A stretch of 37,046 nt of DNA from the NCBI GenBank assembly GCA_019114825.1, contig DXES01000080.1, forward strand, positions 1 to 37,046, given 5' to 3'. Each line of letters begins with the position of its first letter. Position 1 is the first letter of the stretch. Below, piece by piece: positions 5,880 to 29,602 of the stretch. The position numbers and the translations under genes were made by a program. The notes beneath the pieces are model-generated. The model had not been told where the DNA came from. It ran no database searches and saw nothing but the letters and a program-made list of their open reading frames with translations. This stretch comes from Candidatus Anaerotruncus excrementipullorum. Its GTDB lineage: Bacteria; Bacillota; Clostridia; Oscillospirales; Ruminococcaceae.

Positions 5880-5899
5880 TAATACAAGCACTTGTATTA
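5880..5899. promoter_or_regulatory. palindrome TAATACAAG-CA-CTTGTATTA, candidate GntR operator
   Basis: Perfect 9-bp arms; half-site AATACAAG recurs in the GntR promoter at 6030-6044. Confidence 0.5.
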
Positions 5900-6017: not shown

Positions 6018-6046
6018 TTGACAGCTAAAAATACAAGATGTATTAT
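6018..6046 (+). promoter_or_regulatory. sigma-A-type promoter of the gntR gene with overlapping operator-like dyad
   Basis: TTGACA-N17-TATTAT; AATACA-AGA-TGTATT dyad (6030-6044) overlaps spacer and -10. Confidence 0.75.
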
Positions 6047-6097: not shown

Positions 6098-6832
6098 ATG
6101 GCGGAAAACATGAAAAAACTGGTCCCCAGCTGCCTCTACGACCAGGTTTTTGAAAATATCAAGCGGATGATCCGTTCGGGGGAGTTTAAGCCCGGCGACC
6201 TGCTTCCCGGTGAAAATGCTCTGGCGGAGATGATGGGGGTGAGCCGGGTCACCATCCGGCAGGCCCTCAAGCGCCTGAGCGAAGCGGGGGTCATCCGCAC
6301 CTACCGGGGCAAGGGCAGCGTGGTGGCGGTGGACTGGAAGGGGCTCTTGGATGAAGGGGAGTTCCATGACCAGATCCAGCAGTTCCAGGAGGTCTTTTTT
6401 ACCTCCACCCAGGCCCGGCGGCTGATCGAGCCCATGGTGTCCCGGCAGGCGGCGCTGTCCGCCTCCGAGGAGGACATCGCCCGCATGGAGCGGGCGATGC
6501 AAAACAAGGAGGAGCAGCTGGTGATGGTACCCCTCACCGGCCGCAGCTCCGAGCTGGTGGACTTCCACACCGCGCTCTGGATGTCGCTGCACAACGACGT
6601 CCTGATGAAGATCTGGGAGCATCTGGCGGAGACCTCCGCCACCTTCCGCAGCCTGCCCCTGGCGGCCCCCGTCCACCGGGCGGCCCAAAAGGAGGAGGCC
6701 CAGCGGCAGCACGAGGCGATCTTTTGCGCCGTCCGGGATCACAACCAGGAATACGCCTATATCCATATGCTCTACCACTGCGATTGGATCAAAGAGGTCT
6801 ATGGGCAATATTTCAACGACTTCTTGAAGTGA
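6098..6832 (+). CDS. GntR-family regulator (FadR/FCD-like subfamily)
   Basis: wHTH: YDQVFENIKRMIRSGEFKPGDLLPGENALAEMMGVSRVTIRQALKRLSEAGVIRTYRGKGSVV; helical C-terminal region with FHTALWMSLHNDVL. Start follows GAGGGGAGG. Confidence 0.88.
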   Translation: MAENMKKLVPSCLYDQVFENIKRMIRSGEFKPGDLLPGENALAEMMGVSRVTIRQALKRLSEAGVIRTYRGKGSVVAVDWKGLLDEGEFHDQIQQFQEVFFTSTQARRLIEPMVSRQAALSASEEDIARMERAMQNKEEQLVMVPLTGRSSELVDFHTALWMSLHNDVLMKIWEHLAETSATFRSLPLAAPVHRAAQKEEAQRQHEAIFCAVRDHNQEYAYIHMLYHCDWIKEVYGQYFNDFLK

Positions 6833-6957
6833 GGGGCGCAGCCCCCCCTCAGAGGTCCCCAAAACGCCAACTATTTCCCTCGGGGCGGCCTTTTCGCCCC
6901 AGGGAGCTTTAGGATAGCTGGAAAAGGCCGCAGACGGCCGAATTTGGAGGTGTGCAA

Positions 6958-8130
6958 ATGGAGTACAACTTTGACAAGGTCTACGATCGTATGGGCTCCG
7001 ACAGCATCAAATGGGAAAAACAGCTGAAATTCGGCGTTCCCAGCGGGCTGACCCCCTTCTGGATCGCGGACACCGACTTCGCAACGCTTCCCCAGGCGGT
7101 AGAAGCGATGCGCGCCCGCCTGGAGCACCCGATCTTCGGGTACACCTTCACTCCGGAAAAGGTTCTGGAGGCGGTCCAGGGCTGGTACAAGCGCCGCCAC
7201 GGCGTGGATCTGCCGGTCTCCGCCTACGCGGCCGCCCACGGCGTGGTCACATCCATCTGGTTCTCCATCCGGGCGTTTACCCAGGAGGGGGACGGCGTGC
7301 TGGTCTCCACCCCGGTGTATGACCCCTTCTTTGTGGTCATCGAGGACCAGAACCGCAAAAAGGTGGACTGCCCGCTGGTCTATGAGGACGGCGCCTACCA
7401 CATCGACTGGGAGCAGCTGGACGCCAAGCTGGCCACCGTGAAGGCGATGATCTTCTGCAACCCCCACAACCCCACCGGCAACGTGTGGACCGCGCAGGAA
7501 GTGGAGCGGGTGGTCCAGCTCTGCAAGAAGCACGATGTGTGGCTGTTCTCGGATGAGATCCACGGGGACGTGGCCCTCTACGGCAACCGCTGCACCTCCG
7601 CCGCCCAGTTCGCGGCCGAATATGACAAGATGGTGGTCTACACCGCCATCAGCAAGACCTTCAATATGGCGGGCCTGGAGTCCTCCTGCAACATCATCCC
7701 CAACCCCGACTACAAGGCCGCTTTGGTCAACTGCATGCACGGCGCCTGGCTGATGGGCCCCAACTGCATGGCCAACCCCGCCATCGCCGCCTGCTACACC
7801 TATGGCGACGAGTGGGTGGACCAGATGAACGCCTACCTCACCGAAAATGCCGAATATGTGATCCATACGCTGGCCGAGAAGGCCCCCGCCATCAAGGTGG
7901 TGAAGCCCCAGGGCACCTACCTGATGTGGCTGGATTTCAACGCCTTCGGCATGACCAGCAAGCAGATCACCGACGAGCTGGTGAAGGAGTATGGCGTGGC
8001 GGTGGGCGACGGCTCCGGCTACGGCAATGCGGAAGGGTTCATCCGTTTCAATATCGGCTGCCCCCGCGCGACTTTGGAGAAAGGCGTCGAAGCGCTCTGC
8101 CGCTTTGCCGCTTCTAAGAAAGAGAGGTAA
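6958..8130 (+). CDS. PatB/MalY-type PLP-dependent C-S lyase (fold type I, aminotransferase class I/II)
   Basis: WIADTDFATLP...AVEAMRARLEHPIFGYT..., NPHNPTGNVW, LFSDEIHGD, SKTFNMAGL (PLP Lys), RFNIGCPRATLEKGVEAL. Start after GGAGG. Confidence 0.88.
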   Translation: MEYNFDKVYDRMGSDSIKWEKQLKFGVPSGLTPFWIADTDFATLPQAVEAMRARLEHPIFGYTFTPEKVLEAVQGWYKRRHGVDLPVSAYAAAHGVVTSIWFSIRAFTQEGDGVLVSTPVYDPFFVVIEDQNRKKVDCPLVYEDGAYHIDWEQLDAKLATVKAMIFCNPHNPTGNVWTAQEVERVVQLCKKHDVWLFSDEIHGDVALYGNRCTSAAQFAAEYDKMVVYTAISKTFNMAGLESSCNIIPNPDYKAALVNCMHGAWLMGPNCMANPAIAACYTYGDEWVDQMNAYLTENAEYVIHTLAEKAPAIKVVKPQGTYLMWLDFNAFGMTSKQITDELVKEYGVAVGDGSGYGNAEGFIRFNIGCPRATLEKGVEALCRFAASKKER

Positions 8131-8136
8131 AAAAGA

Positions 8137-9456
8137 ATGGGAAACAAACTGAACTTTACAGACTGCCTAGGCTTCTGTATCGGCCAGATCGTCGGCTCCG
8201 GCATCTTCGTGCTCACCGGCATCGTCATGGGCCTCACCGGCCATGGTATGCCCTACGCCTTCATCCTGGCCGCTATCATCTCCCTGCTCCAGCTGATCCC
8301 CATGGCCATCATGGGCTCCGCAATGCCCGCCACCGGCGGCAGCTATGTGTATGCCAAGCGGCTGATCGGGCCCCGGGCCGGCTTTGTCTACCTGATGATC
8401 TTCGTGCTCTCCCAGGTGCTGATCGCCACCTTTGCGCTGGGCTTTGCTGACTATGTGCAGGTGATCTTCCCCGGCGTCTCCACGAAGGTGGTCGCCACCC
8501 TGGCCATCCTGGCCGCGGCCGGCGTCAACATCATCGGCCTGAAGACCTCCGCGGTGGTCCAGAAGGGCATGGTGGCCCTGCTGCTGATCTCCCTGGGCGT
8601 CTACATCGTCTTCGGCCTGCCCCGGGTCAGCTGGGAGATGCTGACCCCCACCATCGACAACCTGATGCCCAACGGGTTCCTCTCCTTCCTGCAGGGCGCG
8701 ACCATGCTCTCCTTCGCCTGCGGCGGCGCCAAGTTCCTGGCTGAGAACGGCGGCGAGGTGGAGAACCCCGGCAAGACCATCCCCCGCGCCATGGTGGTCT
8801 CCACACTGATTGTGGCCGTCTTCTATGCCCTGGTGGGCGTTGTGGCCGCCGGCGTGCTGCCCCTGGACCAGGTGGCCGGCCAGAACATCTCCGTGGTTGC
8901 CAAGGACGTGTTCCCCGCCCCCGTCTATCTGTTCTTTGTCATCGGCGGCGCCTGGTTCGCCCTGCTGACCACCCTGAACGGCACCCTCTCCTGGGTCACC
9001 CGCGGCCTGCAGCGCGCCTCCTTCGACGGCTGGCTGCCCAAGTCCTGGGGCAAGGAGACCAAGAGCGGAGCCCCCATCTATCTGCTGGGCTTCTTCGTTG
9101 TGGTGGGCCTGATCCCGGTGCTCACCGGCATGGACACCACCGATATCGCCAACATGGGCACCGGCTGCTCCAAGCTGTCCGACCTGCTGATGGTGTACGC
9201 CTGCTTCCGCCTGCCTGACGTGCTGCCCGAGGTGTATGAGAAGTCCACCTTGAAGATGGCCCCCGGCAAGCTGAAGGCGGTCATGGTCCTGGTGTTCCTG
9301 GTCCTGGGCGGCACCTCCGCGGTGAGCCTGTCCAGCCTGACCGGCGGCCAGTTCCTGGGCATGGGCGTGTTCATCGTCATCGCCATCATCGTGATGCTGC
9401 TGCGGCAGAAGCACTTCAAGGATGCGGACAACTTCAAGGCCAACAGCAAGGCCTAA
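8137..9456 (+). CDS. APC-family amino acid permease
   Basis: GQIVGSGIFVLTGIVMG..., GGSYVYAKRLIGPRAGF, about 12 hydrophobic segments. Confidence 0.85.
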   Translation: MGNKLNFTDCLGFCIGQIVGSGIFVLTGIVMGLTGHGMPYAFILAAIISLLQLIPMAIMGSAMPATGGSYVYAKRLIGPRAGFVYLMIFVLSQVLIATFALGFADYVQVIFPGVSTKVVATLAILAAAGVNIIGLKTSAVVQKGMVALLLISLGVYIVFGLPRVSWEMLTPTIDNLMPNGFLSFLQGATMLSFACGGAKFLAENGGEVENPGKTIPRAMVVSTLIVAVFYALVGVVAAGVLPLDQVAGQNISVVAKDVFPAPVYLFFVIGGAWFALLTTLNGTLSWVTRGLQRASFDGWLPKSWGKETKSGAPIYLLGFFVVVGLIPVLTGMDTTDIANMGTGCSKLSDLLMVYACFRLPDVLPEVYEKSTLKMAPGKLKAVMVLVFLVLGGTSAVSLSSLTGGQFLGMGVFIVIAIIVMLLRQKHFKDADNFKANSKA

Positions 9457-9496
9457 GCGGTCCTCTATCCGGCAATTTTAAGCAATCCATATTTTC

Positions 9497-9534
9497 CGAA
9501 ATCGTTGCCGGCTCTTTTGCCGGCAACGATTTCG
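9497..9534 (+). repeat. perfect 16-bp inverted repeat between the permease and FAD oxidoreductase genes, without a U-tract
   Basis: CGAAATCGTTGCCGGC-TCTTTT-GCCGGCAACGATTTCG, followed by cgcaataaaaagg. Confidence 0.85.
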
Positions 9535-9557
9535 CGCAATAAAAAGGAGGCGATGAG

Positions 9558-10817
9558 ATGCGCTACGCCATTGTGGGCTTCGGCACCGCCGGCTATCACG
9601 CCGCAAAGGCGATCCGTGCCGGGGACCCGGCCGGGGAGCTCCATGTCTATGGGGACACCGGCCTGGCGCCCTACAACCCCATGCTCACCACCTATTATGT
9701 CTATGGCAAGCTGGACCGGAAGGGGCTCTTCCCCTTTGGGGAGCTGGCCCAGCTCCAGGAGCAGCTGGGCTTTACCTACCACCACGAGCGTGTGATAAAG
9801 GTCCACGCCCAGGAGAGGACGGTGGAGACCGCCTCGGGGACCGAGCCGTATGACAGGATCCTGGTCGCCACCGGCGCCACCGCCTTTGCCCCGCCGGTAA
9901 AGGGCCTGGAGCCGGAGGACTCCTTCCTGATGCGCACCGTGGAGGATGCTCAGCGGCTCAAAGACCGCCTGGACCGGGGGGACGTAAAGACCGCCGTGGT
10001 GGTGGGCGCCTCCATGGCCGGGATCAAGGTGGTGGAGGTGCTGGCCAAGTACGGCGTCCAGGTGGTGCTGGCCGACCTGGCCAAGACCATCTTCCCGCTG
10101 GCAGCCTACCCGGAGGTGGCCGCCATGATCGAGGGGCGGGTGGCCAAGCGGGGGATCGACCTGCGCTTTGGCGTCACCATCGACCATATGGAGACGGTAG
10201 ACGGCCAGAAGACCGCCTTTCTCACCGACGGCACCGCAGTCCCCGCCGATCTGGTCTCCCTGTGCATCGGTACCCGGGCGGCCACAGCGGTGGTCCAGGG
10301 GGAGGTGGAGATCAACCGGGGGATTGTGGTCAACGATCGGATGGAGACCTCTGTCCCGGGCATCTATGCCGCCGGCGACTGCTGTGAGGGCAACAACCTG
10401 GAGAGCGGCCAGCACCAGATCATCGGCCTGTGGGCCAATGCCAACCGCCAGGGGCGGACGGCCGGCGCCAACATGGCCGGCTGCGAGGCCGCCTTCGAGG
10501 GCAATATCCTCCACAACATCACCCACTTTATGGATATGGACTTCATTGGCTTTGGGGATAACCGCATCCAAGGGGAGGTCCTGGAGACCGGTTCCCCCGA
10601 CCACGGCCTCTATATCCGGGTGGTCCTCCAGGAGGGGAAGATTGTGGGGGCCAATATTCTGGATGACTACCGCATCAGCGGCATTGTAAAAAACTATATG
10701 CTCCGCCTGTTCGCCGGGGAGCAGGGGAAGCTGCCCGACTACCAGAAGGCCATGCTCCTGCGCTCAGGGGTGCCGGAGAAATTTATCGACAAATTGGAGG
10801 GGAAGCTGCATGGATGA
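9558..10817 (+). CDS. FAD-dependent pyridine nucleotide-disulfide oxidoreductase-family protein
   Basis: GFGTAGYHAA, ILVATGATAFAPPVKG, VVVGASMAGIKVVEVLAKYG, GIYAAGDCCE. Confidence 0.85.
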   Translation: MRYAIVGFGTAGYHAAKAIRAGDPAGELHVYGDTGLAPYNPMLTTYYVYGKLDRKGLFPFGELAQLQEQLGFTYHHERVIKVHAQERTVETASGTEPYDRILVATGATAFAPPVKGLEPEDSFLMRTVEDAQRLKDRLDRGDVKTAVVVGASMAGIKVVEVLAKYGVQVVLADLAKTIFPLAAYPEVAAMIEGRVAKRGIDLRFGVTIDHMETVDGQKTAFLTDGTAVPADLVSLCIGTRAATAVVQGEVEINRGIVVNDRMETSVPGIYAAGDCCEGNNLESGQHQIIGLWANANRQGRTAGANMAGCEAAFEGNILHNITHFMDMDFIGFGDNRIQGEVLETGSPDHGLYIRVVLQEGKIVGANILDDYRISGIVKNYMLRLFAGEQGKLPDYQKAMLLRSGVPEKFIDKLEGKLHG

Positions 10818-12942
10818 CCTGAACGCACTGCTGAAGGCCAAGATCCCCTGCCCCCAGACGGGGATTGAGGTCAAACACACCGTGTGCGCCATCTGCTCTC
10901 CCGCCTACAACTGCGGCATTGACGCCTATGTGAAGGACGGCAAGCTGCTGAAGGTGGAGGGGATGGACAGCCACCCCCGCAGCAAGGGCGGCCTTTGCAC
11001 CAAAGGCCTGGCCAACCGGGAGTTTGTCTATCGATCCGACCGGATTTTGACCCCCCTCAAGCGGGTGGGGGAACGGGGGGAGGGGAAGTTTTGCCCCATC
11101 ACCTGGGAGGAGGCCTACACGGAGATTGCCCAGAAGCTGCTGGCTATCCGGGCCCAGGACGGCCCGGACGCGGTGGCCTTCTTTGGCGGCTACAACAAGT
11201 GGTACCGCCCCTGGCTGCGCCGGTTTGCCCATTCGTTTGGCACCTATAATTATGGCACCGAGTCCTCCACCTGCATGACCGCCGGTTGGATGGCCTGGAA
11301 GGTGGCCGCCGGGCAGCTGGCCCGGCCGGATATGGCCCACTGCGACCTCTATCTGGGCTGGGCGTTTAACCCCTACTACTCCGGCTACCTCAACGCCCAA
11401 GCCGCTGAGAAGCGCAAGGCGGAAGGGGTCAAATTCATTGTGGTGGACCCACGGATTACCCCCACCACCGAAAAGTTGGCCGACCTGCACCTGCGGCCCC
11501 GGCCGGGCACCGACGGCGCTTTGGCCCTGTGCATCGGCAACACCCTGATCCAGCGGGGCTGGATCGACCGGGAATTTATCCAGCAGCATGTCCATGGCTT
11601 TGCAGAGTACGCTGAATATGCGAAGGATTTCAACGAGACCAATGTGGAGGCGCTCACCGGGGTGCCCTACAGCCAGGTGCTCCAAGCCTGCGAAATGATC
11701 CGGGACAGCAAGGCCATGGCCATTCAGGAGAACAGCGCCCCCATTCCCCACCACAAAAACGGCCTGCAAAACTACCGGGCGATCATGGCCCTCTCCGCCC
11801 TCACCGGCAACTTTGACCGGGTGGGCGGTCAGGTTCCCGCCCACCACAGCTTTACCCACCAGATCGCGGGGTTTGAGACCCGGGAGGAGGAGTGGCAGGA
11901 CGCCACCGCCCCCGCCCATCAAAAGCCCGCGGTGGGGGAGGAGCGGTTCCCCCTGTGGTTCCACACCGAGCGGGAGATGCAGGTGGTGGACCTGGCCCGC
12001 CAGATCAATGAGGGCACCCCCTACCCGGTGAAAGCGATCTTTGGTATGGGGGTCAACTTCCGGATGCTCCCCCAGGATGGGGAACTGGTGAAGGCCATCA
12101 AAAAGCTGGACTTTTTTGTCAATACCGACCTGTTCCTCACCGATACCTGCAAGCTGGCGGATATCGTCCTGCCGGTCTGTTCCTCTCTGGAGCGGGGGGA
12201 ACTGGAGACCTACCCCGGCGGTTGGGCTTGGTTCACCAAGCCGGCCATCAAACGGGTGGGGGAGAGCAGGAGCGATGTGGAGATCATCCGGGATCTGGCC
12301 CAGCGGATGGAGTTGGGGGACCGGGAGCTGGAAGCCGGTTATGAGGCCAATGTGGACTTTATGCTCTCCAACCTGGGGCTCACCGTGGCAGAGCTGAAAC
12401 AGTCGGAGGTACCAGTGAAGGTGGACTTCACCCCCTATCAGCCGGGCACCCGCCGGCGGGAGGGCCTGCCCACCGCCACCGGCAAATTCGAGCTCTATTC
12501 GGAGATGATTGCCAGCCATCCCCAGTGGGGACTGGACCCGCTGCCCACCTACTGCCCGCCGTTGGACGATGCGGATGAAAAGGAATATCCCTATGCCCTC
12601 TGCTCCGGCGGCCGCCTGCCCAATGCCCTGCACTCCCGGCTGCACAAGGTGCCCTGGCTGCGCAGCCTGCGCCCCGACCCCACCGCAGAAATTTCCTTGG
12701 AGGATGCCCAGGCCTTGGAGATCTCGGACGGGGATGGGATCGAGCTCTATACCGCCCGGGGGAGCATCTCGGTGAAGGCCCATCCCTCCCGCCGGGTACA
12801 GCCGGGCGTGGTGTTCTTCTACCACGGCTACAGCCAGGCGGATGTGAATGCCCTTATGTCCGACCAGCATGTGGACCCCTATTCCGGTTTCCCGGCCTAT
12901 AACGCCACCCGCTGTGGCATGAGAAAGAAGGTGGAGCAATGA
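10810..12942 (+). CDS. molybdopterin (bis-PGD)-dependent oxidoreductase, DMSO reductase superfamily, no evident Tat signal
   Basis: N-terminal [4Fe-4S] motif CAICSPAYNCG...GGLCTKG; CPITWEEAY; LTGNFDRVGGQVP; molydop-binding C-terminal domain. Start overlaps the previous gene by 8 nt. Confidence 0.9.
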   Translation: MDDLNALLKAKIPCPQTGIEVKHTVCAICSPAYNCGIDAYVKDGKLLKVEGMDSHPRSKGGLCTKGLANREFVYRSDRILTPLKRVGERGEGKFCPITWEEAYTEIAQKLLAIRAQDGPDAVAFFGGYNKWYRPWLRRFAHSFGTYNYGTESSTCMTAGWMAWKVAAGQLARPDMAHCDLYLGWAFNPYYSGYLNAQAAEKRKAEGVKFIVVDPRITPTTEKLADLHLRPRPGTDGALALCIGNTLIQRGWIDREFIQQHVHGFAEYAEYAKDFNETNVEALTGVPYSQVLQACEMIRDSKAMAIQENSAPIPHHKNGLQNYRAIMALSALTGNFDRVGGQVPAHHSFTHQIAGFETREEEWQDATAPAHQKPAVGEERFPLWFHTEREMQVVDLARQINEGTPYPVKAIFGMGVNFRMLPQDGELVKAIKKLDFFVNTDLFLTDTCKLADIVLPVCSSLERGELETYPGGWAWFTKPAIKRVGESRSDVEIIRDLAQRMELGDRELEAGYEANVDFMLSNLGLTVAELKQSEVPVKVDFTPYQPGTRRREGLPTATGKFELYSEMIASHPQWGLDPLPTYCPPLDDADEKEYPYALCSGGRLPNALHSRLHKVPWLRSLRPDPTAEISLEDAQALEISDGDGIELYTARGSISVKAHPSRRVQPGVVFFYHGYSQADVNALMSDQHVDPYSGFPAYNATRCGMRKKVEQ

Positions 12943-13448
12943 GCCGCCTGGCAATCGACCTGGATATGAGCAAATGCGTCTCCTGCGGCGCCTGCGCCAT
13001 AGCCTGTATGGACCAAAACGATATCGAGCTGGATGCCGGCAAAGGCCCCTTCCGCTGTGTCTTCGACATGGAGGAGCGGGAAGGGTTCAGCCACCTCTCC
13101 CTGGCCTGTATGCACTGTGTGGACGCCCCCTGCATTGTGGGCTGCCCCAGCGCCTGCATCCACAAGGACCCCGAGACCAACCTGACGGTCTTTGACACCA
13201 CCAACTGTATCGGCTGCCACTCCTGCGCCATGGCCTGTCCCTACGGTGTGCCCTCCTTTGGGCCGGATGGGAAGATGGTCAAGTGCGATGGCTGTTATGT
13301 CCGCGTACACCATGGGCTGCTGCCCGCCTGTGTCAAGGTCTGCCCCACCAAGGCGCTGCGCCTGATCGACCTGGATGCCCCTGCAGAGATCCCGCCGGAG
13401 CATTCCCTACGCCAGCGCAGCCTCGCCCTGCTGGAACGCCAAGTGTGA
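12939..13448 (+). CDS. 4Fe-4S dicluster electron-transfer subunit (DmsB/PsrB-like)
   Basis: Four Cys motifs: CVSCGACAIAC, CMHCVDAPCIVGC, CIGCHSCAMAC, CDGCYVRVHHGLLPACVKVC. ATGA overlap with the Mo subunit. Confidence 0.9.
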   Translation: MSRLAIDLDMSKCVSCGACAIACMDQNDIELDAGKGPFRCVFDMEEREGFSHLSLACMHCVDAPCIVGCPSACIHKDPETNLTVFDTTNCIGCHSCAMACPYGVPSFGPDGKMVKCDGCYVRVHHGLLPACVKVCPTKALRLIDLDAPAEIPPEHSLRQRSLALLERQV

Positions 13449-13477
13449 TTTCCCTCCTAACCATATCGCGTTCTCCT

Positions 13478-13521
13478 AAAACGGCTTGCCGCCTGCATTT
13501 TGCAGGCGGTAAGCCGTTTTT
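13478..13521 (+). terminator. intrinsic terminator of the C-S lyase/Mo-oxidoreductase operon
   Basis: AAAACGGCTTGCCGCCTGCA-TTT-TGCAGGCGGTAAGCCGTTTTT. Confidence 0.85.
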
Positions 13522-13568
13522 ACAGGGAAACACGTTTTTTGCCAATCCAGTTGGGAAAATGAAAATGT

Positions 13569-13607
13569 AAAAAGCGGCTGCCCCGCCGCATAGCGGAGCA
13601 GCCGCTT
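13569..13607 (-). terminator. intrinsic terminator of the M16 peptidase gene
   Basis: AAGCGGCTGC...GCAGCCGCTT stem with a T-run on the minus strand. Confidence 0.75.
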
Positions 13608-13617
13608 CCATCCATTC

Positions 13618-16600
13618 TTAGCCCTGCCGGTAGTCATAGACAGCGTCATAGACCTCCGCGGCGGCCTGGATCAGGGCGGCATTGCCGACGGTCACCAGCC
13701 GCATATCCTCCCACAGGGTACGCATGGCCTCTACAGCAGCTTCCCTGTCCGCCGGGGTGGCTTCCAGCATCTCTCTGGCCAGACGCTGTTGGAGGCCGGT
13801 GTCAAATCCAGACAGCGTATATTGCATGGCTATCATCATCCGTTCCAGCTTGCCGGTGGGCCTGGTGACGAGGGAATAGGCGCTGAGGATGTAGCCATCC
13901 AATTCCTCCTGGGTGAGCTCCAGCTCCGCCAGAACATCGGGAATCTGCGCAATCGCCGCAACACTGGCAGCGGGGTTGGGGTCGCTGTAGCTATAGACGG
14001 ACAGCTGATTCAACTGGGAGGACACCAGGACGCCAGCACTGTAGGCCAGCCCCTGGAAGCGGATGGTGGGGACCAGATATTGGTTCTCCAGGGCATAGAG
14101 GAAGGGGAATAGGGTTCCGGAGAGATTCTCCAGTTTTTTTGCATCAAGGACGGCCGCGGTGGTGGTGGTGCTCCCCTCGGTGACCACTGCAAATTGGTCC
14201 GGATACTGTGGGAAGGCATGGGCAGCCTGGGCCTTGGGCAGGGAGGGCAGGGCCCCCAACTTCTCCCCAGCCAGAGCACAGAACCCATCCAGCGTGTCGG
14301 CGGGGGCGGCAGCCATCACCACCAAATTGTCCCGGTGGAGGATATGTCCCGAGATCTCCTGCAGCTTGGCGGTCAGGGTGTCCATAGCGGCGGGATCGGC
14401 ATCCAGCTGTGCCCGCTGCTGGGCGAGGAACTCATAGAACCCTTGGCCGGAGAGCATCTCAGCGTATTGGTAGCTGGCACCGGACACTGTTTGGGCAAGG
14501 AGTAGGGCCAAATCCATTTCATCCGCCCGGGAGAGGTCGCTCTGCGGAAGAATCTGGTCGATGGCGTACAACACCTCCTCCGGGTTCAGATCCAACTGCC
14601 CAAACAGTTCCAAAAGCAGATCCAGGCTGTCCTCGGTATCCTGGGGCAGGGCGTACCATTGGAGGTATACAAAGGGATTGGCAAATGCCCCGGAATCGGG
14701 ATATTTCGTGCCGAGGGTGTAGCCGTAGAGATACTGCATGGCCAGCTGGTTCATCTCGGTGGCTGTGTGGGTTTTTGTGCCCAGCTGGTCTGCAAGCAGC
14801 AGGTAGAGGCGCAGATAGTACAGGTCCTCCTGGGGGATTGTGCTGGTGTCGAAGTAGACGGCATAGGACCCAATGCCCTCCATGCCGGAGGGGACGGTGA
14901 GGTAGGTGATGCCCTCCTCCTGCCGCTGTGTGACCTGGGGCAGCGGCTCCTCCAAAGGCAGGTCGGCCACCGGGATGGACAGGTCCTCATTCTGCATCTG
15001 GAGGGCGTTCCATTCATCGAAGGCCAAGGTATCGGCCACCAGCTGCTCCAGCTCCGCCTGGGTCATGCCCGCCTTTTTCTCGGCCAGATAGTCGGCCTGC
15101 TCCTGGAGAATCTGCTCAGCCAGGCCGGGCTGGGGGGTGGAGGTGACCAGGGCGCTGCGCTGGGCATTTTGCAGGTTGGCGGTCAGCTGCCGGATGAGCT
15201 GTTGGTCGGTGTCCTGGCGCAGGGTGTCAAAGGCGGCGTTCTGATCCAAAAGGCTGTCGGTCTCCCCGGTCTGCACCCACTTGTAGGCCACATAGGGGAA
15301 GATGTTTTCGATGATCACATCGGCCTGTTCCAGGGTGGTATAGTCGCCGATCTCCTTGGCCTTCAGGATGGACTCCACCAGGGCGGGGTCCAGCCCCTCC
15401 TCTGCCACCTGGGCTAGCGTCTGTTCCACCACCGCCTTGAAGGGGGCGGCGTCCTCCGGGTTGGCGCTTTGCAGCATGAAGGCAAAGAACGGCTTGGCTG
15501 AATCGATCCCCACCCCGGCGGACCCCAGGGAGGTAATACCGGCGTTATACAGATTTTCCCGGAAGGGGGAGCCCACCATATTGAATGCGGAGGACAGCAG
15601 GTCATACTCGGCCAGCTGGGTCCAGTCGGCGCCGTCCAGGTCCATGGCATAGAAGATATAGCTGACATCCCGGGTGGCGCTGCCCTCATAGGCAGGGATG
15701 GGCAGGGCAACTTCCACATAGCCGGACTGGGTGGGCGGATCGTCATAGGCGCTCAAGTCGGTGCCCTGGGCAGGGTAATGAGAGAGGTACTCCCCATCCA
15801 AAAATGCCAGGAAACTTTGGTAATCCAGGTCGCCATAGAGCAGCAGCAGGGAATTGTCGAAGTGATAGGCTCGGTCGTAGGTGGCCACCGTATGTTCATA
15901 GGTGAGGCCCTCATAGTTCTCAAACGCCCAGCCCAGCATATTGGCGGCATACTCCCCGGGATAGAGGGCCTGCAGGAGGTTGCGCATCGCATTGAGGGAG
16001 ATGTCGGTCATCCGGCCGGTATCCTCGCTGAAGACGGTCCCCCCCATCTGAATGGGGTCGTCCACATCATAAAGCATATACCGCAGGGCTTCCCGTTGGA
16101 AGAACCGCTCATCCTTCAAAAAGCTGGGGTCTACCATACAGCTCAAGTAGGCGTCTGCCATCTTTTGCAGCTGTTCTTCGCTCTGGCTGGCCACAGGGTA
16201 GATGGTGAATGTCAGGTTGGTAAAGGCGTTGAGATAGGTGTTGTAGGTCTTGCCCATCAGGTCAAAGAACAGGTCGTGGCTGGGGTATTTTCCAGAGGAG
16301 GCGAGCACCGCATGTTCAAACACATGGTTGGTGTCGGTCTCGTCCACCTGGGGGGTGCGGTAGGCCACAGCGAACGCCCGGTTGGTGTCGTCATTTTGAA
16401 TATAGAGCAGCTGGGCTCCGCTCACCGTATGGGTGAACGAGAGCAGGTTGGCGTCCAGTGGCGCAAAGGGTTCCACTGAGGTGAGGGTGAATCCGGCAAT
16501 CTCCTCCCCTATTTGGGGCGCAGCTTCGGGGCCTGCCGGCTGCTCCTGGGCAGGCTGGGAGGCGGCAGGCTGGCTGGAGGCTGCCTGGGAGGCCTCGCCG

Positions 16601-23998: not shown

Positions 23999-24928
23999 CT
24001 ATTCCCCGTAGAGGCCGGAGGAGAGATACCGGTCCCCCGAGTCGGGGGCCAGGGCCACAATCAGCTTTCCGGCGTTTTCCGGCCGCTGGGCCAGCCGGGC
24101 GGCAGCGCAGATGGCCGCCCCTGCCGAGTACCCGGCCAAAATCCCGTCGGTGCGGGCGATCTGGCGGCAGGTGTCCCGGGCATCCTGGGTGGAGACGGTG
24201 AGGAACAGGTCCACCGCCGAGCGGTCCAGGTTGCCGGGCAGGAAGTTGGCCCCGATCCCTTGGATGCCGTGGGGGCCGGCGTGGCCGGCGGTGACCAGGG
24301 GGGATTCAGCCGGCTCCACAGCGGCCACCTGGATGGCGGGGTTGTGGCGCTTGAGGGCCCGCCCCACCCCGGAGACGGTACCGCCGGTGCCGAAGCAGGC
24401 CACAAATACTGCCACCTGCCCATCGGTATCCCGGAGGATCTCCTGGGCGGTGGAGGTCTCGTGGGCGGCGGGGTTGGCGGGGTTGTCAAACTGCCGGGTC
24501 AAAAAGGCGCCGGGGGTCCGGGCAGCCAGCCGGTCGGCCTCCTCCACAGCCCCCTGCATCCCCGCTGCGGCGGGGGTGAGCACCAATTCGGCCCCCAGGG
24601 CGGCCAGCAGCTGCCGCCGCTCCAAGCTCATGTTCTCCGGCATGGTGAGCACCAGCCGGTACCCCCGGATGGCGCAGACGAACGCCAGGCCGATGCCGGT
24701 GTTCCCGGAGGTGGGTTCGATCACCACGCCGCCGGGGCCCAGCGCCCCCCGGGCCTCCGCGTCCAAAATCATGGCGTAGGCCGCCCGGTCCTTCACCGAG
24801 CCCAGGGGGTTGCGGGATTCCAGCTTCACCACCAGCCGGGCGGGCAGCTGGTGCAGGGCGTTGTAGCGGGTGAGCTCCACCAGCGGGGTGGAGCCGATGA
24901 GCTGTGTGAGGTCGTGCTTGATATACAT
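23999..24928 (-). CDS. cysK: O-acetylserine sulfhydrylase / cysteine synthase
   Basis: LIGSTPLVELTRYN..., KLESRNPLGSVKDRAAYAMI (PLP Lys), EPTSGNTGIGLAFVC, GTGGTVSGVGRALK, GIGANFLPGNLD. Start MYIKHD with AAGGAG; the longer ORF in the track is upstream read-through. Confidence 0.9.
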   Translation of the reverse strand: MYIKHDLTQLIGSTPLVELTRYNALHQLPARLVVKLESRNPLGSVKDRAAYAMILDAEARGALGPGGVVIEPTSGNTGIGLAFVCAIRGYRLVLTMPENMSLERRQLLAALGAELVLTPAAAGMQGAVEEADRLAARTPGAFLTRQFDNPANPAAHETSTAQEILRDTDGQVAVFVACFGTGGTVSGVGRALKRHNPAIQVAAVEPAESPLVTAGHAGPHGIQGIGANFLPGNLDRSAVDLFLTVSTQDARDTCRQIARTDGILAGYSAGAAICAAARLAQRPENAGKLIVALAPDSGDRYLSSGLYGE

Positions 24929-28885: not shown

Positions 28886-29602
28886 ATGGGGACGATTGTA
28901 AATAGCGCCGCAGTCCTGGTGGGCGGCCTGCTGGGGCTGCTGCTCCGGCAGGGCCTGTCCAAGCGGATCGAGGAGATCGCCATGAAGCTATTGGGCCTCT
29001 CGGTCTTTTTGGTGGGGCTGGAGGGGACGCTCTCGGCCATGATGACGGTGGACGGGGAAGGGAGGCTGGCCGCCTCCGGGTCGCTGCTTTTGATCGTGAG
29101 CCTGCTGGTGGGCGGCGTGCTGGGCACCGGACTGGACATCGACGGGGTGCTCCAACGGGGCGGCCGCCTGGTGGAGCAGCGGCTGGGCCGGGAGGGGTTT
29201 GCCCGGGGGTTTGTGAACACCTCCCTGATCGTCTGCGTGGGGGCGATGGCGGTGATCGGGGCCCTCAACGACGGCCTCACCGGGGACAGCAGCGTGCTGT
29301 TCGTCAAGGCGGCCATGGACTTTGTGATCGCGGTGGTGCTGGCCTCCACACTGGGGTTCGGGGTGCCCTTCGCCTTTTTGCCGGTGCTGGTCTACCAAGG
29401 GGCGATCACGCTGGCGGCCGGCTGGCTGGCTCCGGTGGTCACAGGGACGCTGCTGGACGGCATCTGCATGGTGGGGTATGCCATTGTGGTGCTCATCGGG
29501 ACCAACTTTTTGGGCTGGACCGACATCCCCACCGCCAACCTGCTGCCCGCCCTGGCCGGGCCGGTGCTCTACGAGGTGGTTTTGCGCCTGATTCCGGGCT
29601 GA
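28886..29602 (+). CDS. DUF554-family membrane protein
   Basis: MGTIVNSAAVLVGGLLGLLLRQGLSKRIEE..., hydrophobic helices, TDIPTANLLPAL. Confidence 0.8.
   Translation: MGTIVNSAAVLVGGLLGLLLRQGLSKRIEEIAMKLLGLSVFLVGLEGTLSAMMTVDGEGRLAASGSLLLIVSLLVGGVLGTGLDIDGVLQRGGRLVEQRLGREGFARGFVNTSLIVCVGAMAVIGALNDGLTGDSSVLFVKAAMDFVIAVVLASTLGFGVPFAFLPVLVYQGAITLAAGWLAPVVTGTLLDGICMVGYAIVVLIGTNFLGWTDIPTANLLPALAGPVLYEVVLRLIPG

Follow-up and report, generated by a model that had tools for sequence, protein, structure and literature searches.

We analyzed a 37,046-nt stretch of DNA (hereafter the window) from Candidatus Anaerotruncus excrementipullorum (contig DXES01000080.1; source assembly of 1.94 Mb, 79% complete). 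At positions 6098–13448 the window carries a set of six genes, which encode a regulator, a pyridoxal phosphate (PLP)-dependent C-S lyase, an amino acid permease and the flavin adenine dinucleotide (FAD), molybdenum (Mo) and iron-sulfur (Fe-S) subunits of a putative redox complex (hereafter the trio). The set is followed by a strong terminator, and its features are as follows:

6098..6832, + strand: GntR/FCD transcription regulator (PF00392, 76 bits; PF07729, 56 bits)
6958..8130, + strand: PatB/MalY-type PLP C-S beta-lyase (TIGR04350, 383 bits; cut-off 340)
8137..9456, + strand: APC-family amino acid permease (PF13520, AA_permease_2, 121 bits)
9558..10817, + strand: FAD/NAD(H) oxidoreductase subunit (PF07992, Pyr_redox_2, 175 bits)
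10810..12942, + strand: catalytic subunit of a bis(pyranopterin guanine dinucleotide) (bis-PGD) Mo enzyme (PF00384, PF01568, PF04879)
12939..13448, + strand: four-[4Fe-4S] electron-transfer subunit (PF13247)
13478..13521, + strand: intrinsic terminator, a very stable hairpin followed by T's (stretch −44 kcal/mol, z −7.8)

The FAD and Mo genes overlap by 8 nt (FAD end at 10817, Mo start at 10810), and the Mo and Fe-S genes overlap as ATGA (Mo end at 12942, Fe-S start at 12939). A preliminary description of this DNA had named the same six genes and families, both overlaps and the closing terminator; the gene coordinates, the Pfam and NCBIfam scores and the z value of the hairpin bear it out on each of these points.

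Judging from its sequence, the lyase is a solid member of the PatB C-S lyase family. Its relatives score 385 and 391 bits on TIGR04350, the nearest solved structure is that of a PatB (6qp3, E 2.5e-90), and both motifs that mark membership are present: ISKTFNMAGL with the PLP-binding Lys, and CNPHNPTG (N-P-H-N-P). The motif SK[TS]FN[ML]AGL is retained in the Mo-linked PatB homologues. Beta-elimination at a C-S bond would fit the family match, the SK[TS]FN motif and the presence of RidA in one relative (locus L005), where its gene lies directly 3′ of the Fe-S gene, as expected if PatB releases 2-aminoacrylate. The nearest solved structure to the permease is ApcT MJ0609 (E 4e-19), and its substrate is not deducible from homology to solved structures. 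A CysK-like PLP synthase, recognized by eye, lies at 23999-24928 (− strand) of the window, about 10 kb from the cluster, with no link shown between the two.

The catalytic subunit belongs to the dimethyl sulfoxide (DMSO) reductase superfamily of bis-PGD enzymes by its PF00384, PF01568 and PF04879 domains and by the fold of its AlphaFold2 model (predicted local distance difference test, pLDDT, 91.9; predicted template modeling score, pTM, 0.91). Its [4Fe-4S] ligands (C26, C29, C35 and C63) and its metal ligand (C155) are invariant in 26 homologues, and Cys155 aligns with the Cys ligands of formate dehydrogenase (FDH), PsrA and acetylene hydratase. The closest fold in the PDB was that of acetylene hydratase (2E7Z; TM score 0.86/0.84, root mean square deviation 3.1), while the Ser-ligated S-oxide reductases were less close (TM score by query 0.76-0.78). 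By sequence, PsrA (2vpw, 190 bits), acetylene hydratase (187 bits) and methanogen-type FDH (185 bits) were equally near among solved structures, and no equivalog was reached in the NCBIfam search. In a tree with references the family formed a clade of its own (96/99), apart from FDH; for its nearest neighbor, approximately unbiased tests gave p-AU values of 0.41 for joining it to acetylene hydratase, 0.31 for PsrA and 0.042 for DmsA, the first two placements not being rejected. The Mo enzyme is assigned to an uncharacterized Cys-ligated family. Alignment columns specific to the PatB-linked Mo clade gave no pointer to the substrate.

Membership in several characterized families was considered and rejected. 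Characterized S-/N-oxide reductases of the superfamily have Ser as the metal ligand; this type (DMSOR, TorA, BisC, MtsZ) was discarded because position 155 is Cys and not Ser and curated scores fell far below cut-off. The DmsA/YnfE family was matched with 221 bits vs. 778, and a clade with E. coli DmsA was weakly rejected (the p-AU of 0.042 given above). Formate dehydrogenase did not hold either: Met156, not His, follows Cys155, the Fdh-alpha score was 288 bits vs. 666, and the FDHs separated in the tree (100/99). For PhsA/PsrA the score was 257 bits vs. 694, with no export signal and no NrfD/DmsC gene in the cluster. As for acetylene hydratase proper, its catalytic Asp13 (beside the second Fe-S Cys) is replaced by Ser30 in CAICSPAYNC; the position is not Asp in aligned close members, except in L049_0, where it is. 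Since the window protein has no counterpart of Asp13, hydration by the Mo enzyme appears unlikely. The preliminary description had offered S-oxide reduction as an example of the redox chemistry. Such an activity is possible, but the enzyme class does not favor it: Cys is invariant at the metal-ligand position, and acetylene hydratase is a better fold match than MtsZ and DMSOR. That S-oxide reduction is real gut chemistry is documented for E. coli from faeces, a different organism, which reduces S-methylcysteine sulfoxide by an unknown enzyme (PMC8137612).

The FAD subunit has PadH as its best NCBIfam match (201 bits, under the PadH cut-off); among solved structures it comes nearest to 8c0z_E, which is the corresponding FAD subunit in an aldehyde oxidoreductase complex. 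In the aligned homologues an Asp (LAD/FAD/VD/LLD) ends beta2 of the second Rossmann fold, which is of the NAD(H) type, and no CoA-disulfide-reductase Cys was seen in the N-terminal region. The Fe-S subunit is DmsB-like (111 bits vs. a cut-off of 214), contains 18 Cys, including the motifs for four clusters common to its homologues, and also resembles the Fe-S subunit of the 8c0z complex. We found no twin-arginine (Tat) signal at the N-terminus of the Mo subunit (MDDLNALLKAKIPCPQTGIEVKHTVC) or of the Fe-S subunit, and no DmsC/NrfD gene in the cluster. Because signal peptide and membrane anchor are both absent, the simplest reading is that the three subunits form a cytosolic NADH-linked complex, in which electrons would run from NADH to the substrate. 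The preliminary description had likewise noted the missing signal and anchor and proposed a cytoplasmic, NAD(P)H-linked complex, with which the NAD-type acidic residue of the FAD subunit agrees.

Genes of related loci were called by codon-usage scoring; the close named relatives of the host are Negativibacillus and Oscillospiraceae genomes. The Mo enzyme is uncommon, being found at E up to 1e-100 in 12/299 genomes of a family sample and 11/394 genomes of an order sample. Relatives carry lyase/permease and redox genes together, a point on which the preliminary description had asked for a synteny search. The order PatB-APC-FAD-Mo-FeS is kept in five loci including the window, the others being L004 (Clostridiales bacterium BH.7_2), L005 (uncultured Oscillospiraceae), L030 (genome G268) and L031 (genome G266), with Mo identity down to 56-58%. 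A sixth locus, L029 (genome G173), has PatB-Mo-FeS but neither APC nor FAD, and a search of that genome at E 1e-20 gave no FAD homologue. When 28 Mo enzymes were placed in a maximum-likelihood tree, those of these six loci and of Negativibacillus (L003), seven in all, grouped together (95/90), the Negativibacillus protein lying within the group; the gene set therefore most simply had a single origin and lost members later. Within the family sample, the two best window-like permeases (54%) both adjoin a Mo gene; the next ones (<=44%) whose surroundings were read do not. The association of these genes is not due to chance. Two further neighbors were seen in these loci: a DUF554 membrane protein adjoins PatB in L029 (13159-13845) and L030 (14916-15602), the window's own DUF554-like protein (found by eye) lying far from the cluster at 28886-29602, and an EamA-family transporter gene, perhaps for a product exporter, follows the Fe-S gene in L030 (6926-7807) and L031 (10150-11022).

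The trio was also found in other surroundings. In L082 (genome G936, 6264-13675) it lies directly 3′ of RidA and a tryptophanase/tyrosine-phenol-lyase-like enzyme, this beta-lyase being directly upstream of the trio with RidA beside it; an NhaC-type carrier is near and a UbiD decarboxylase is further on. NhaC-type carriers accompany the trio in L032, L041 and L042 as well. In L043 (genome G577) and L044 (genome G471) it stands beside two EutA-like genes (Asp/Glu racemase/AMDase family), two MmgE/PrpD genes and one EutC/ornithine-cyclodeaminase-like gene, which together may represent an unrecognized catabolic cluster. In L033-L035 the trio occurs with a MobA-like and YedY-like pair, and in L047 and L048 the Mo and Fe-S genes occur with NMT1-type ABC genes. 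From this range of neighbors the trio is read as a general module with varied substrates, which is probably NADH-linked. It has been paired with a PLP beta-lyase more than once, and the two lyases concerned, PatB and the tryptophanase-like enzyme, are unrelated.

Signals that could govern expression were identified upstream of gntR and between the two halves of the set:

5880..5899, no strand assigned: 20-bp perfect palindrome TAATACAAGCACTTGTATTA (inverted repeat 9+2+9), candidate GntR operator
6018..6046, + strand: sigma-70 promoter TTGACA-17-TATTAT (11/12 consensus positions)
9497..9534, + strand: intercistronic hairpin in the permease–FAD gap, 16-bp perfect stem (−38 kcal/mol; z −4.3 for the 101-nt gap)

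A second candidate operator, AATACAAGATGTATT (AATACA-AGA-TGTATT), read directly from the sequence, overlaps the promoter spacer and −10 element. All three TGTATTA half-sites of the window (5880, 5893 and 6039) lie upstream of gntR, vs. 0.49 expected, a count of three being reached in 1/100 shuffles. Promoter-like matches in the region were no commoner than in shuffles, so that the promoter at 6018-6046 is supportive only. The gap between gntR and patB measures 125 nt. In the permease–FAD gap, hairpins that differ in sequence from that of the window were found in L005 (z −3.5) and L030 (z −4.0), and L004 shows by eye an imperfect stem followed by T's. The six genes thus do not obviously form one uniform transcript; given the strong hairpin and its counterparts in relatives, the lyase/permease half and the redox half are probably expressed at different levels. 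The preliminary description had spoken of one regulated cluster; the 125-nt gap and the hairpin-bearing 101-nt gap speak against a single uniform transcript. In the window no tRNAs were present and no Rfam match reached the gathering threshold, and in a plasmid search the top-listed matches were only distant relatives (~31%).

Genes for cofactor supply accompany the set in relatives. MoaA, MoaC, MoeA-type and MOSC/MogA genes adjoin it in L005, L029 and L030, as does a Mod-type ABC transporter, with MobA additionally in L029 and L030; in L004 its neighbors include MOSC/MogA and transporter genes. In L029 the transporter exceeds the cut-offs for molybdate ModA and ModB, which favors Mo over tungsten (W). 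The host's own genes for Mo cofactor (Moco) synthesis and Mod transport, the same set, are on another contig (C78). A second Mo/W cluster was seen on host contig G000:C66 (L050, 2946-10632), with a divergent bis-PGD enzyme (30% identity), a lipoyl-domain dihydrolipoyl dehydrogenase, two Fe-S proteins, a 301-aa AFOR N-domain protein and a second FAD subunit; a MobA-like gene adjoins it.

Taken together, we tentatively propose a cytosolic fermentation of a sulfur amino acid, a reading to which we give slightly less than an even chance. In this substrate-regulated module, the APC permease would import a sulfur-containing amino acid, and PatB would cleave off its sulfur group through beta-elimination, so that 2-aminoacrylate (later pyruvate and ammonia) and a sulfur product are formed. 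Through the FAD-FeS-Mo complex, electrons would move from NADH to an oxidized group carried either by the amino acid or by the sulfur leaving group (e.g., a disulfide or persulfide, a thiosulfonate or thiosulfate, an S-oxide or another reducible substituent); cleavage would therefore be coupled to NAD+ regeneration. That PatB and the Mo complex serve one pathway, the electron flow from NADH and the nature of the substrate are what we infer here. Points counted in favor are the shared gene order, the single Mo clade, the permeases, the retention of PatB in L029, the Moco genes, the likeness of the FAD and Fe-S subunits to those of 8c0z, and RidA, which deaminates the 2-aminoacrylate released by PLP beta-elimination. 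A further step, which we consider possible but doubtful, is an undescribed anaerobic pathway of gut-type Clostridia in which the acetylene-hydratase-like, Cys-ligated Mo enzyme, fed by NADH via FAD and Fe-S, carries out a new reductive reaction on the sulfur amino acid or a fragment of it, in series with the C-S lyase, so that sulfur amino acids would be both carbon source and electron sink.

Several observations weigh against the proposed fermentation. In Negativibacillus (L003, genome G216) a GntR-FAD-Mo-FeS operon, with a Mo subunit 72% identical to that of the window, cleanly lacks PatB and APC, and only a distant PatB (34%) occurs elsewhere in the genome; the Mo enzyme would thus be usable without the lyase. 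Conversely, PatB-APC pairs without Mo genes were found in L076-L078 and L081 (35-42% identity; with GntR too in 2 cases), so that lyase and permease were probably paired first or form a unit of their own elsewhere. Each half therefore works alone somewhere. In addition, RidA is absent from the window, and the many unrelated neighbors of the trio mean that gene context does not fix its chemistry. The single pathway that the preliminary description had drawn from import, C-S cleavage and redox chemistry is thus supported in part: the genes recur together and C-S cleavage fits the lyase family, but the solitary halves weaken the joint pathway and the enzyme class weakens the S-oxide example.

A special case of the proposed fermentation, coherent but unlikely in our estimate, is that the Mo enzyme acts on an S-S bond that PatB makes or leaves behind, in a persulfide (from cystine) or in thiosulfate (from S-sulfocysteine), and so resembles a polysulfide/thiosulfate reductase of a cytosolic, NADH-linked kind. 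PatB/MalY-type lyases are able to release persulfide from cystine, and cleavage of S-sulfocysteine yields thiosulfate. The Cys metal ligand is that of PsrA, PsrA is the top solved-structure match by sequence, and among NCBIfam families PhsA ranks second (257 bits vs. a cut-off of 694). Yet acetylene hydratase and FDH match equally well, the closest fold is that of acetylene hydratase and not PsrA, the tree does not group the family with PsrA (though such a grouping was not rejected, p-AU 0.31), and trio relatives occur in contexts without obvious sulfur genes.

We likewise see little likelihood that the two halves are independent and share the regulator only, PatB-APC serving general cysteine or S-conjugate use and the trio an unrelated electron acceptor. 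The solitary halves in some relatives, among them the Negativibacillus operon, and the strong intercistronic hairpin are what such independence would explain. On the other hand, the full order is kept in one clade over ~57% Mo identity, L029 retains PatB with Mo-FeS after loss of APC and FAD, and a different beta-lyase occupies the same upstream position in L082.

An improbable alternative is that the Mo enzyme is a reductive dehydroxylase, or a related reductive C-X cleaver, of an acetylene-hydratase-like branch, with a hydroxylated or aromatic group as its target, either in a cysteine conjugate or in the compound set free by the lyase. This would fit the closest fold, and catechol dehydroxylases were reported to be nearest to acetylene hydratase (PMC7028382). 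The L082 context (tryptophanase-like lyase, NhaC-type carrier, UbiD) suggests aromatic substrates, and NADH-driven dehydroxylation by the gut enzyme Ucdh, of another Mo family, was proposed as a fermentative electron sink (PMC12771579). However, aromatic-degradation genes are absent beside the PatB clade, and the idea that the substrate is a cysteine conjugate is speculative. The metallopterin ergothioneine synthase MES, in which an acetylene-hydratase-related, Cys-ligated Mo/W module is joined to a PLP desulfurase (PMC9516567), offers another analogy, under which the Mo and PLP enzymes might jointly form or cleave a C-S bond of a (hetero)aromatic ring; fold and Cys ligand match, but this is very improbable, as the PLP part of MES is a NifS-type desulfurase (class V) and not PatB, its description mentions no FAD or Fe-S partner, and the cluster holds no histidine methyltransferase-like gene.

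The significance of the fermentation proposed above lies in gut chemistry, which is shaped by sulfide and thiols from sulfur amino acids, and in the fact that most Mo enzymes of gut Clostridia are without a known substrate. The gene set defines a small, testable Mo enzyme family that brings its own clue, in the form of a C-S lyase together with an amino acid permease, and suggests an undescribed way for uncultured anaerobic Clostridia to ferment sulfur amino acids. Since one FAD-Mo-FeS module has been combined with two PLP beta-lyases that are unrelated to each other, there is a concrete way to learn what the family reduces. The combination of known parts is real and conserved, and probably undescribed: as the preliminary description had held of the pathway, we did not meet it in the literature searched, a negative that reaches as far as that literature.

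Comparison with known systems shows partial likeness to each. The lyase is full length, above the family cut-off and carries the PLP-lysine motif of the PatB/MalY C-S beta-lyases (TIGR04350; 6QP3), but it has a Mo redox complex as operon partner. The aldehyde oxidoreductase complex 8C0Z provides the nearest FAD-subunit structure and a matching Fe-S subunit; its catalytic subunit is AOR-type, whereas that of the window belongs to the DMSOR superfamily. PsrABC/PhsABC share the Cys ligand, the alpha/beta subunit pair and the top solved-structure match by sequence, while the window complex has an FAD subunit instead of signal peptide and membrane anchor. Catechol dehydroxylases of Eggerthella/Gordonibacter (DMSOR family), compared by description only, are bis(molybdopterin guanine dinucleotide) enzymes whose reported nearest relation is acetylene hydratase, and a four-cluster Fe-S subunit accompanies some of them; as described, they are two-component or membrane-anchored and have no FAD/NADH subunit. 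MES also pairs a Mo/W module related to acetylene hydratase with a PLP sulfur enzyme, but as a fused single chain with a class V desulfurase and no NADH/FAD subunit described. Acetylene hydratase (2E7Z) itself has the closest fold, one [4Fe-4S] cluster and a Cys metal ligand; it differs in its Asp13, which the window protein lacks, whereas the window protein has FAD and four-cluster Fe-S partners and the transporters on the host side are molybdate-type in appearance.

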